Assembly (NCBI GenBank): GCA_003134815.1
Contig: PLCO01000009.1
Coordinates: 65,010-129,009, forward strand
Reading direction: 5' to 3'
Source of the DNA: Acidobacteriaceae bacterium
GTDB lineage: Bacteria; Acidobacteriota; Terriglobia; Terriglobales; Acidobacteriaceae
DNA length: 64,000 nucleotides
The position numbers were made by a program, and so were the translations under genes. Below the pieces are notes generated by a model. The model saw only the letters and a program-made list of their open reading frames with translations. It searched no databases and was not told the DNA's origin. Positions 51,373 through 56,361 of the stretch are shown here, piece by piece. The stretch's first letter is position 1; the number at the start of each line of letters is the position of its first letter.

Positions 51373-51789
51373 ATGAGATTCCCCGCGAAGTTTGTCCGCG
51401 CTAAAGAAGGCGGCTTTGTCGTCACGTTCCCTGATATTCCCGAAGCGATTACGCAAGGGGAAAACATTGACGACGCCATGTGGCACGCAGCAGACGCTCT
51501 GGAATCTGCGCTTGATTTCTATTTCGAAGCGGGCCGGCCAGTCCCTCTTCCCTCCCCAGCTAAACGCGGCCAGAGGATGGTTGAACTGCCGGCGAGCGTT
51601 GCCGCAAAGGTTCTTCTGCTCAACGAGATGATCCGCCAGAAAGTGCGGCCTGCGGAGTTGGCTCGCCGCCTGCGTGTGACACCTCAGGAAGTGACGAGAT
51701 TGATTGACTTGCGCCACGCGACGAAAATCGACGGGATCGCGGGCGCGTTGAAGGCATTGGGTAAAACGATGGAAATTCGGGCCGTTTGA
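51373..51789 (+). CDS. hicB: HicB antitoxin with HTH domain
   Basis: HicB neutralises HicA and represses the operon. The N-terminal partially degraded RNase-H-like domain reads FPAKFVRAKEGGFVVTFPDI, PEAITQGENIDDAMWHAADA and LESALDFYFEAGRPVPLPSP. The C-terminal part is a helix-turn-helix (RPAELARRLRVTPQEVTRLI, DLRHATKIDGIAGALKALGK). The length (138 aa) is normal for HTH-type HicB. It ends four bases from the convergent kdsA stop, so there is no room for a terminator. Confidence 0.94.
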   Translation: MRFPAKFVRAKEGGFVVTFPDIPEAITQGENIDDAMWHAADALESALDFYFEAGRPVPLPSPAKRGQRMVELPASVAAKVLLLNEMIRQKVRPAELARRLRVTPQEVTRLIDLRHATKIDGIAGALKALGKTMEIRAV

Positions 51790-52769: not shown

Positions 52770-53327
52770 CTACTCGGCGTGGCTGCGCGACCACTCCCAG
52801 AGCGCGCGGTCAATTGTGCGCAGAGGCGTGGGAGCGGGAAGCTCGCTTTGCGGCGTGACGATGTTGCTTTCGGCGAGGCGCTTGCAGAAGGCCAGGTACT
52901 CCTCGTAGAAGCGGACGTCGTGACGCGCGTGGCCCAGGGCTTCAAGGGTGCGGTAGTCCAGCACCGTATAGCGCTCAGGGAAGATTGCGGCCAGAACGGC
53001 TGAGGCCAGGGCAATGTCAATGCCGTGAAGATCAAGCAGCGCCTTTACGGCGGTTTCAGTTGAAGACTCGGGTGATGCGGCGACGGACAAGGTGCGGCGG
53101 ATCTTCTCGTTGCTGTTGCAGATGAGGACCTGCACCGCGCGCTCGGACTTCCAGCGCACAATCGCTTCCAGGTTGGCCAGCGAATAATCTCCATTGCGAA
53201 TGGCTTCTCCGGCTTCAAAAGCGGCTTTTTCTAGCTCGTGCTCTTTCTCGCCGGCTGTCTGCCAATACTGCTCTGCCAAGTCTTGCAACTCCGCTTCAGC
53301 AGGCTGAAGCTGGAAGTAGGCGACCAT
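52770..53327 (-). CDS. Hypothetical protein with a helix-hairpin-helix-like segment
   Basis: I prefer the ATG at 53327 (MVAYFQLQPAEAELQDLAEQ) because AAGGA precedes it at good spacing. The 185-aa product is helical. LLDLHGIDIALASAVLAAIF with PERYTVLDYRTLEALG resembles the helix-hairpin-helix segment of DNA-glycosylase-like proteins. The end TIDRALWEWSRSH is also characteristic of a conserved group I recall, without assigned function. The catalytic Lys/Asp of HhH-GPD glycosylases is not evident. It sits beside vapBC and the TcmP pair, so a nucleic-acid role is possible. Confidence 0.7.
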   Translation of the reverse strand: MVAYFQLQPAEAELQDLAEQYWQTAGEKEHELEKAAFEAGEAIRNGDYSLANLEAIVRWKSERAVQVLICNSNEKIRRTLSVAASPESSTETAVKALLDLHGIDIALASAVLAAIFPERYTVLDYRTLEALGHARHDVRFYEEYLAFCKRLAESNIVTPQSELPAPTPLRTIDRALWEWSRSHAE

Positions 53328-53699
53328 CTCGATATTCCTTCCTTTCATTCCCAAAGCTTAGTCACGATAGGCCCGGGGCGAAATCATTGTCAATAACCCG
53401 GAGGGTGGTATTTGCGCAGGCGTACCGGACTGGTCTAGTCAGACTCGGATGGCCATGGAAACGGCTGCCCGGATTGCTGTTGAAGAGGCATTTGTTCATC
53501 GAATTATGGCTCGAAGAGGAACATTTTATAGGTCAAAAGAGGACACGAAAAAGAAGGCTTCCAGTGGAAGTAGACGAGATTGCCATGAGATTCGCTTGAA
53601 GGGGAGTTTGCTGCGGGAAGAATGTTTCGAGAAAAGCGGGGCTGGATGGGCGGGGAGCGATTTTTGGATTCGAGTGAAATCGTGATTGGTCACTTTAAG
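53328..53699. other. Intergenic region upstream of vapBC
   Basis: About 370 bases. Short plus-strand ORFs (53387-53599, 53449-53685) overlap in different frames and have no family character. The region is AT-richer than flanking genes. It may be a decayed gene, but I see no recognisable remnant. Confidence 0.35.
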
Positions 53700-53754: not shown

Positions 53755-54036
53755 ATGAATGCCATTGTGGAGATTGATCGTGCGGGCAGGATTGTGGTGC
53801 CAAAGAAGTTTCGCGACGCGCTGCGGCTGCGGCCAGGAACGCGACTAAAGCTGGAGCGGGCCGGCGACCAGTTGGTGCTGGAGCAGGACTACCCGGAACC
53901 GCGGCTGGAAATGCGAGACGGACTGCTGGTGATGGTAGGCGGGCCTCCGCTGACGGCGGAGGACGTGAACGAGGCAATCAAGCAGGGGTATGACGAGCGC
54001 CACAAAAGGATTATGGAAGGAAGCGGATTGGAGTGA
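53755..54036 (+). CDS. vapB: AbrB/MazE-type antitoxin (VapB)
   Basis: The 93-aa protein has the swapped-hairpin AbrB domain: VEIDRAGRIVVPKKFRDALR, LRPGTRLKLERAGDQLVLEQ. A C-terminal toxin-binding tail (LTAEDVNEAIKQGYDERHKR) follows. It should bind the TGCCATTTT repeats. Its stop overlaps the toxin's GTG by four bases. Confidence 0.92.
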   Translation: MNAIVEIDRAGRIVVPKKFRDALRLRPGTRLKLERAGDQLVLEQDYPEPRLEMRDGLLVMVGGPPLTAEDVNEAIKQGYDERHKRIMEGSGLE

Positions 54037-54518
54037 GCGTCTTCCTCGATACTTCGGTGCTTGTTGCCGCGGTGCGCACGGCCGACCTACGTCATGCAGC
54101 CAGTAACGAACTGGTACGGAAATGCGGCCCCGACAACTCCAGTTGCGCGGCGCACACCTTGGCCGAGGTTTACTCCAGCCTGACGGGTATGCGCCCGCCG
54201 AACCGTTTCCGCCCGGAGCAAGCGATTCAAGTGATTGATGAGTTTCGCGCGAAATTTCGCTGCGTGGAGCTGACAGCGGACGAAGTGGTGGACACGGCGC
54301 GCGGAATCGCGGGCCTGGGATTGATGGGCGGAATCATTTACGATGCTCTGCTGCTGACCTGCGCCCGCAAGGTGAACGCGGACCGGATTTACACCTGGAA
54401 CGTTCGACATTTTCAGACGGTGGCGCCGGATCTGGCAGGGCGAATTGTGGAGCCCGGCCAGCAAGACTCGCTCGGAGTCGATCACGAGACCGAGGACGAC
54501 GTCATCGGGTTTCCGTGA
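54033..54518 (+). CDS. vapC: PIN-domain ribonuclease toxin (VapC)
   Basis: VapC toxins cleave RNA. The PIN acidic residues are visible: Asp6 in VFLDTSVLVAAV, Glu in HTLAEVYSSLTG, and Asp in GGIIYDALLLTCARK. TWNVRHFQ provides the last strand, with Asn in place of a final Asp. The GTG start overlaps vapB. The C-terminal tail of about 25 residues after IVEPG is acidic. It forms a complete type II toxin-antitoxin pair. Confidence 0.92.
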   Translation: MSVFLDTSVLVAAVRTADLRHAASNELVRKCGPDNSSCAAHTLAEVYSSLTGMRPPNRFRPEQAIQVIDEFRAKFRCVELTADEVVDTARGIAGLGLMGGIIYDALLLTCARKVNADRIYTWNVRHFQTVAPDLAGRIVEPGQQDSLGVDHETEDDVIGFP

Positions 54519-54701
54519 GATGAGGGTTTGGCTAGCATTCCGCCGCAAGTCCATTCTGATCGCGCGGCCTGGAGGGGGAAGGCGGCGCTGCGACTCGAAC
54601 AACCTATCGGGTATGCTAGTTTGATTCTCCATCTGGCCGACCCGACTAGAGCTACACTGATCGACCTTGACATAAAGAGAACGAAAGGCGAAAGTCTAAG
54701 C

Positions 54702-55541
54702 ATGAGCACAGAGCTCAGAATTGACGAAATCGGCTACTGGTCCGAGGTCAAGCTCGCGATCTTGGACGAGTATGCCAAGCCTTACAACCAGATACTGCAT
54801 AAGCGTCGCTTTAAGACCATGTACATTGATGGTTTCGCCGGCGCAGGACACCACCGGGCCAAAGGTAGCAACCGGGTAATTGAAGGCAGCCCTCAGCGTG
54901 CTTTAAATGTGCAGCCGCCATTTGACTACCTCCACTTTGTCGATATCGATTGAGCGCGTGTGCATGAATTGGAACGTCTGACGGCTGGGCGCCAAAATGT
55001 GCAGGTACATCATGGCGACTGCAACAGGATTCTCGTCAACGATGTCTTTCCGAAGGTTCGGTATGCAAACTATGAGCGGGCCCTGTGCATTTTGGACCCG
55101 TACGGATTGCACCTAGACTGGCAGGTCATCAAGGCTGCAGGCGATTCTCAATCGATTGAGATCTTCCTGAATTTCCCAGTAATGGACATGAATATGAACG
55201 TCCTTTGGCACAACTCGGATCTCGTTTCCGAGCTTCATCGGGAACGAATGACAAGATTCTGGGGTGATGACTCTTGGCAGAACGCAGCCTATCAAACTAC
55301 ACAGGGTCTCTTTGAACAAATGCAGGAGAAGTCTACCAACGAGGAGGTCGCCGAGGCATTCCGGGTCCGACTGATGAAGGACGGTGGCTTCAAGTATGTT
55401 CCAAAACCAATGCCAATGCGCAATACGAAAGGAGCGGTAGTATATTTCCTGTTCTTTGCCGCCCAAAAGCCAGCCGCCGACAAGATCGTGAAAGATATCT
55501 TTGCGAAATACGCGCACCGTGGAGAGGTCCCAAATGGCTGA
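54702..55541 (+). pseudogene. tcmP: tcmP, three-Cys-motif partner gene interrupted by an in-frame TGA
   Basis: Read through, the 280-codon frame is a typical TcmP with a methyltransferase-like Rossmann pattern: YIDGFAGAGHH (motif I), LHFVDID (motif II), VQVHHGDCNRILV and LCILDPYGLHLDW. Codon 84 (54951-54953) is TGA directly after FVDID, in a place where the family continues. A CGA-to-TGA change would explain it. The frame is intact on both sides. GTG at 54960, two codons later, could restart translation and yield a split protein of 83 and 193 aa. Alternatives are a true pseudogene or a sequencing error. The DNA is AT-richer than its neighbours (27 of 60 G+C in the line at 54781). It overlaps the three-Cys gene by eight bases. 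Confidence 0.85.
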
Positions 55542-56361
55542 ACATTCGACAATCGAATGGACTGACGCGACATGGAATCCAGTACGGGGCTGCACGAAGG
55601 TCAGCCCCGGCTGCAAGCACTGTTATGCAGAAGTCTTCGCAGAGCGATTTCGTGGCGTTCCAGGGCATCCATACGGGCAGGGATTCGACTTAAGATTGGT
55701 TCCGGAAAAGTTGGCAGAGCCGCTGCGCTGGCAAACTCCCAAGATGATCTTCGTGAACTCGATGAGCGATCTCTTTCACCCTGGGGTTCCCGACGAGTAC
55801 ATCGAGGCAGTTGCTACCGTGATGGTGAGAGCAAAATGGCATACTTACCAAGTTCTCACAAAGCGTTCAGCCCGAATGGCAAGTCTTCTTAATGGGAGAT
55901 TGAGATTTGCGGCGAACTCACCGCACATCTGGTGGGGAGTCAGCGTTGAGAACAAGCAGCACGGCCTTCCCCGCCTTCGCGACCTTCAGGCGTCGCCCGC
56001 TACTGTGAGGTTTTTGTCTATAGAGCCATTACTTGAGGGGCTTGGTCGCTTGCGCCTTGACGGCATTCATTGGGTGATCGTTGGCGGAGAGAGCGGGCCG
56101 GGCGCGAGGCCATTAAATAGAGACTGGGTTACTTCGATTCGTGACCAGTGTGTTGACGCCGGCATACCATTTTTCTTCAAGCAATGGGGAGGCATTCGCA
56201 AGAAGCGCGCTGGGCGAGCGCTTGACGGACGCACCTACGATGGTTTTCCCGCGCGGACGAACCATCCCGTTTCCTCAATCGCGACTGCATTGGCTTGGGC
56301 AAGCGAAATCCGAAAGGCATACGATGCATCCCAGTCGGAACTCTTACCTGTCTTAGCGTAG
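55534..56361 (+). CDS. Three-Cys-motif (DUF5131, phage Gp37/Gp68-like) protein
   Basis: The ATG at 55534 (MAEHSTIEWTDATWNPVRGC) has GGAGAGG in front. The Cys20-x6-Cys27-x2-Cys30 motif (GCTKVSPGCKHCYA) suggests an iron-sulfur cluster like that of radical-SAM enzymes, although the spacing is not the classical CxxxCxxC. The remainder contains IFVNSMSDLFHPGVPDEYIE, VLTKRSARM, WWGVSVENKQ, FLSIEPLLEGLG, VIVGGESGPGARP and FFFKQWGG, all typical. The family occurs in phages and next to TcmP. The reaction is unknown to me. It overlaps the upstream tcmP by eight bases. Confidence 0.93.
   Translation: MAEHSTIEWTDATWNPVRGCTKVSPGCKHCYAEVFAERFRGVPGHPYGQGFDLRLVPEKLAEPLRWQTPKMIFVNSMSDLFHPGVPDEYIEAVATVMVRAKWHTYQVLTKRSARMASLLNGRLRFAANSPHIWWGVSVENKQHGLPRLRDLQASPATVRFLSIEPLLEGLGRLRLDGIHWVIVGGESGPGARPLNRDWVTSIRDQCVDAGIPFFFKQWGGIRKKRAGRALDGRTYDGFPARTNHPVSSIATALAWASEIRKAYDASQSELLPVLA

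Follow-up and report, generated by a model that had tools for sequence, protein, structure and literature searches.

A tcmP gene whose frame is broken by a single TGA, followed directly by an intact gene of the DUF5131 family, raises two questions: whether the break is decay, a natural split or recoding, and what an intact copy of the pair would do. Both genes lie in a window of 64,000 nucleotides, the whole stretch of DNA analysed here, on contig PLCO01000009.1 of an Acidobacteriaceae bacterium (the host), whose draft genome of 66 contigs yielded one copy of each. We consider it likely that they form a mobile tcmP-DUF5131 operon, probably controlled by LexA (SOS), whose tcmP was recently inactivated by a nonsense mutation. 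At the sequence level, the basis of this reading is a tcmP frame that is clean but for one TGA, an undamaged DUF5131 gene, an upstream element that also stands ahead of lexA, uvrB and an ImuA-like gene in the host genome, and the absence of the pair from this site in near relatives. The initial annotation had described the adjacency of both genes with their eight-base overlap, the TGA after FVDID and the GTG two codons further on, all of which translation and profile matches bear out (Table 1). The SOS-type box upstream, which is most telling for function, was absent from it.

The direct repeat ahead of tcmP

A direct repeat of the form RGCGAA-N5-RGCGAA stops 9 bases 5' of the tcmP start, with a candidate -35-like hexamer directly in front of it. 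We followed the repeat in 22 close loci, comprising all genomes whose best TcmP-search match reached E <= 1e-34 (59 of the 397 genomes of the host's order matched at all). With a gap of 5 and both strands allowed, 20 of the 22 loci score 11 or 12 of 12 ahead of tcmP, 13 of them perfectly, and no other gap from 0 to 15 yields such scores in more than one locus. On one strand, scores of at least 11 are reached in 19/22 loci as against 17 of 4,400 shuffles. A pattern with a gap of 4 has the wrong spacing (14 matches versus 4 in the control) and was not used. A slightly looser pattern matches 16 times in the host genome and its reversed control six times. Five of the 16 matches are located at gene starts, namely those of lexA (an open reading frame (ORF) of 201 amino acids; L132, C6), uvrB (L135, C20), a RecA/ImuA-like gene (L147, C62), an Lhr-type helicase gene whose first codons the box overlaps (L141, C35) and tcmP; nine lie inside ORFs and two elsewhere. 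By curated cut-offs, uvrB and lexA score above and the ImuA-like and helicase genes below. The lexA start could be located in eight of ten genomes (all but G121 and G114); the box is perfect in seven of these and reaches 10/12 in the eighth, a score of 12 being attained by 0/2,400 shuffles, and separate pattern searches gave a perfect box for lexA of G121 as well. Of 4,000 windows of 150 bases drawn at random across all loci, 91 score at least 11; this pool is no clean null because it includes box-bearing loci. In G121 and G240, perfect matches again include lexA, an ImuA-like gene and tcmP; others fall within ORFs, ahead of a sigma factor gene or ahead of unnamed genes. Since the repeat also precedes lexA, uvrB and imuA-like genes, RGCGAA-N5-RGCGAA is probably the LexA box of this order. 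Judged by its operator, tcmP belongs with this putative regulon, as it shares the element of lexA and the repair genes and carries it at the promoter. Separately, G240 possesses a perfect box 12 bases 5' of an Rv2578c/PA0069-type gene (L237:1501-2735, below curated cut-offs), which may encode a second radical-SAM (S-adenosylmethionine) protein under SOS control.

An independent test took the first 61 listed DUF5131 places of the order and used 60 of them; G274 was excluded because its contig starts 6 bases 5' of the gene. Within 1,500 bases upstream, 38/60 loci score at least 11 and 26 are perfect, compared with 16 of 247 control windows drawn from 27 loci of the same order, one of them perfect. 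When the 10 loci used for motif discovery are left out, the box is present in 29/50 loci (20 perfect), and gaps of 2 to 8 other than 5 yield 2-7 of 50. If no same-strand ORF adjoins upstream (n = 19), the box stands at most 160 bases from DUF5131 in 12 loci, and where another gene leads DUF5131 it is mostly found about 860-1,180 bases ahead. Several of these genomes (e.g. G101 and G182) are without TcmP, which here means without a match to P0002 because this query reaches only the nearer TcmPs. The distribution suggests that DUF5131 can be retained without TcmP.

Apparent mobility and possible roles of the pair

The pair is AT-richer than its surroundings, as had been noticed initially: the G+C content is 51.2% for tcmP and 55.2% for DUF5131 versus 59.9-63.3% in six other genes measured. 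The neighbouring genes, which we take to be kdsA, pyrG and a TonB-type receptor gene, co-occur in relatives with a macro-domain gene and the ORF at 52770-53354, though not every contig has all of them. The pair is absent from this site in G006, the listed relative with the most similar PyrG (94%), which instead has other small ORFs, one antitoxin-like, and in G011, where AbrB/PIN toxin-antitoxin genes are present. G004 carries the pair on contig C8, apart from pyrG, which is on C3. Hence, both genes seem to travel together as one unit. DUF5131 was detected in 58 of the 59 TcmP-positive genomes and in 124/397 overall, and both genes are annotated as neighbours, in several orientations, on plasmids of Pseudomonas, Streptomyces, Mycolicibacterium, Rhizobium and Phaeobacter. 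One Rhizobium phaseoli plasmid (L229:71-4395) has them facing each other and adjoining genes for an N-6 DNA methylase, an Eco57I-type methylase and a GIY-YIG nuclease. The phage association proposed initially holds for DUF5131 (161 of 50,697 phage records, and phrog_2045) and not for this type of TcmP, which matched only 5 of these records.

Table 1. Features of the tcmP-DUF5131 region in window coordinates.
Feature	Position	Strand	Remarks
Candidate -35-like hexamer TTGACA	54667..54672	+	directly 5' of the box; by eye
Direct repeat AGAGAAC-GAA-AGGCGAA (probable LexA box)	54676..54692	+	11/12 matches to RGCGAA-N5-RGCGAA
tcmP, whole frame	54702-55541	+	open but for one TGA
tcmP, first part	54702..54953	+	83 residues; Lys17, motifs I and II; TIGR04474 72.1 bits, PDC-M41A 62.7 bits
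In-frame TGA	54951..54953	+	codon 84 of tcmP
tcmP, second part	54954..55541	+	in frame, no further internal stops; TIGR04474 124.1 bits, PDC-M41A 185.6 bits
DUF5131 (phage Gp37/Gp68 family)	55534..56361	+	ATG start at 55534; 275 residues, intact; PF07505 324.8 bits, PDC-M41B 332.7 bits
HicB-like antitoxin ORF	51373-51789	+	C-terminal helix-turn-helix-like part; PF15919 33.1 bits
194-residue protein	52770-53354	-	no match in Pfam, NCBIfam or PADLOC; conserved next to kdsA/pyrG in several relatives
AbrB/PIN (VapBC-type) toxin-antitoxin pair	53755-54518	+	intact; directly 5' of tcmP

In an intact copy, DNA damage would relieve LexA repression of the operon, and TcmP, with its RlmJ-like SAM-methyltransferase fold, would be produced together with DUF5131, whose putative radical-SAM fold is nearest to spore photoproduct lyase. 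Both proteins would act on nucleic acid, the simplest role being to handle or mark DNA or RNA that is damaged or foreign. In the host strain, translation would end after motif II; TcmP would be dead because its SAM-binding and catalytic motifs are split onto separate pieces, and DUF5131 could still be made from its own Shine-Dalgarno sequence. We tentatively propose that the pair constitutes a DNA-damage-inducible repair or modification system, in which a LexA-controlled, lyase-like radical-SAM enzyme acts on lesions or modified bases, aided by a dispensable and repeatedly lost RlmJ-like methyltransferase; DUF5131 would then be under the same LexA control also without TcmP upstream. Two widespread families without a known reaction thereby gain an SOS regulatory context, in one bacterial order, and the fold neighbours of both point to nucleic acid. 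Their function becomes directly testable, and a little-studied order obtains a candidate LexA box and a draft SOS regulon. In the open-licence literature we found no function for TcmP or DUF5131, although other meanings of TCMP could hide one, and no statement on SOS control of the pair.

It is likewise possible, if short of probable, that the intact pair provides anti-phage defence and not repair or housekeeping, in which case SOS control would arm it under phage or DNA-damage stress. The adjacent host genes match both M41A and M41B of PADLOC-DB 2.0.0, i.e. the candidate defence pair PDC-M41, the distribution is patchy and mobile, and DNA methylase and nuclease genes adjoin the pair on the Rhizobium plasmid. 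The DUF5131 protein scores nearly equally with M41B (332.7 bits) and M30B (329.1 bits), so that only the TcmP half separates M41 from M30. A published prediction places PDC-M30 in 32 P. aeruginosa strains, of which 68.8% were phage-resistant, and an expression table within PMC12445080 lists an S. meliloti TcmP gene next to the defence gene hna. Passages of PMC12988326 and PMC10855318 present the PDC entries as unvalidated guilt-by-embedding candidates. Further arguments against defence are that nine of ten neighbour genes from five loci of the order lack a PADLOC family match, the tenth, with weak TIR-effector matches, being assigned by Pfam to the type II secretion ATPases and bearing a cyclic-nucleotide domain, and that DUF5131 retains its box without an adjacent upstream gene, alongside lexA, uvrB and imuA-type genes. 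A defence-island context thus received no clear support from these neighbours. The suggestion of an undescribed system was too strong, as NCBIfam names TcmP and PADLOC-DB holds the candidate; both families are named and the pair is already listed as PDC-M41, and what is new is the SOS-type box.

That the repeat is some other shared promoter or regulator element and no LexA operator appears unlikely. Its orientation before lexA is opposite to that before tcmP, and some perfect matches are intragenic or distant from known SOS genes, which would fit such an element. However, it stands 28-29 bases 5' of the lexA start in six genomes, occurs also before uvrB and ImuA-like genes, and none of 17 pyrG upstream regions reaches a score of 11.

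Several observations weigh against the LexA-controlled mobile operon that we favour. We found no LexA-DNA data, and no LexA-binding experiment, for the host's order in the open-licence literature, which also leaves room for a non-LexA element. The nine intragenic matches make up more than half of the 16 in the host genome, 22/60 DUF5131 loci lack a box at a score of at least 11, and the host box itself has one mismatch, a form common to its genus (G022 and G073; G004 is similar). On 18 plasmids of other groups, chosen by the author from 60 listed of 401 matching records, known LexA boxes preceded DUF5131/TcmP genes no more often than by chance, so that SOS control is indicated for the host's order only. 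The DUF5131 model has a predicted local distance difference test (pLDDT) value below 50 at residues 23-29, inside the Cys motif, and Foldseek returned nothing for it at E <= 0.001. TcmP carries DPYG as motif IV where RlmJ has DPPY and thus departs from the DPP(Y/F) form. Finally, the seven database contigs that carry the interrupted gene (see below) may derive from the same reads.

The premature stop and the probable decay of tcmP

The TGA is the only internal stop in the tcmP frame, as compared to 14 and 13 stops in the other two forward frames of the region. Each half alone exceeds the curated TIGR04474 cut-off of 53 bits, covering profile positions 1-82 and 93-262, so that the gene matches this family and lacks an intact single frame. 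The stop separates Lys17 and motifs I-II from GDCN and DPYG (D132 and P133 in 124/124 relatives, Y134 in 123/124, G135 in 121/124). Six bases 3' of it, a GTG (54960-54962) opens a product of 193 residues that contains both latter motifs. An alignment at codon 84, which the initial annotation had recommended, revealed 13 different residues among 124 TcmP relatives with Cys or Trp in none, and Val in 99/124 at the GTG codon. The P0002 model (an intact relative; mean pLDDT 87.7) places column 84 at the first residue of helix 84-93, following strand 76-81. Relatives with intact tcmP exist, the nearest being 89% identical across the second part. Because the column is variable, the GTG is an ordinary Val codon, selA has no match in the host genome and TcmP is interrupted at different places in other loci, a recent nonsense mutation is the most likely origin of the TGA. 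The premature stop probably represents ordinary gene decay that has left the host tcmP dead. The ratio of nonsynonymous to synonymous substitution rates was of little use, since synonymous sites are at or near saturation.

All 22 close loci have DUF5131 3' of tcmP, and in six of them, the host included, TcmP is interrupted at different places: by the TGA at codon 84 in the host, a frameshift in G360, a frameshift at residues 88-90 with overlapping frames in G114, an insertion with an IS110-family transposase in G022 (L058:9896-11440; DUF5131 intact 3'), a deletion in G245, and a combination of stops and a frameshift in G409. A stop in G214 near TcmP residue 270 of 279 was scored as intact. DUF5131 is damaged in two loci (G214 and G409) and truncated by contig ends in G371 and G305. 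While part of these lesions may be draft errors, repeated TcmP decay at differing positions is the simplest reading. We rejected a toxin-antitoxin role of the pair on the intact DUF5131 beside an interrupted TcmP in 5/22 loci, by which TcmP, if the breaks are real, is not an obligate antidote. In G399, which falls below the E-value threshold and outside the 22 loci, TcmP residues 4-62 adjoin a partial DUF5131 (G399:C351:8158-8814), as though a deletion had fused both genes.

A sequencing or assembly error in an intact gene is very unlikely, although the genome is a draft, the lesion is single and the nearest relatives have an intact frame. The exact 83-residue product is present on seven database contigs, as is an identical DUF5131, the longest in both cases having the size of the host's own contig (332,776 bases), and the exact 193-residue product is found on two contigs, the longest of a different size (142,332 bases).

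A naturally split TcmP, of which ribosomes would make two pieces by stopping at the TGA and restarting at the GTG, is just as unlikely. The distance between both codons is short enough for coupling, the frame stays open for 193 codons and gene callers logged this product on the two contigs mentioned; moreover, the fragment P0250 stops some two residues beyond this position, and the frameshift of G114 is at residues 88-90. Yet the GTG encodes a conserved Val, P0250 sits on an 828-base contig and the G114 lesion is a frameshift whose frames overlap, no stop-restart. Anti-Shine-Dalgarno pairing before the GTG is -1.9 kcal/mol (random median -4.7), weaker than at 75% or more of random positions, although this alone decides little because three ordinary starts in the region reach only -3.2 to -3.5 kcal/mol; the value before DUF5131 is -7.6 kcal/mol. 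In the structural model, the split would sever the cofactor core after strand 2. The ends of 33 N-terminal TcmP fragments, some cut by contig ends, are scattered, though three cease to match near residue 72 and P0250 near 85; we rejected a programmed split at a fixed place on this scatter. On the scattered breaks, the weak GTG pairing and the G114 frameshift, we rejected stop-restart as the leading reading. Readthrough of the TGA as selenocysteine or another residue has a negligible chance: the frame does continue past it, but the missing selA match and the absence of Cys failed the gene as a selenoprotein, Trp is likewise absent from the column, and tcmP itself terminates in TGA. Of the three options offered initially for the TGA, the recent pseudogene is supported, and the stop-restart split and recoding are not.

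Comparison with known systems

Compared with PDC-M41, the host locus differs in its interrupted tcmP, which leaves M41A in two pieces, and in the probable LexA box ahead of the operon. The alphaproteobacterial LexA box is GTTC-N7-GTTC. Both this box and the host repeat are direct repeats of period 11 before lexA and repair genes, with a different half-site, RGCGAA, in the host.

Sequence searches for solved relatives returned nothing significant for either protein, and likeness was found at the level of fold. For TcmP, the nearest solved fold is RlmJ, the 23S rRNA m6A2030 methyltransferase, and the model contains a Rossmann-type methyltransferase fold; profile comparison with RlmJ is weak (probability 15.6%). 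DUF5131 matches PF07505, a radical-SAM-like family, and keeps its Cys motif C-X6-C-X2-C, the three Cys being invariant in 45/45 aligned sequences. It is a distant relative of TIGR04471 (rSAM_mob_pairA), with a score of only 64.1 bits where the cut-off is 355. Its nearest solved folds are radical-SAM enzymes, with spore photoproduct lyase as the best, at 9-10% identity and a Foldseek E of 5e-3, a similarity of fold only. The Cys spacing of spore photoproduct lyase, C-X3-C-X2-C, differs from that of DUF5131 in its first interval.
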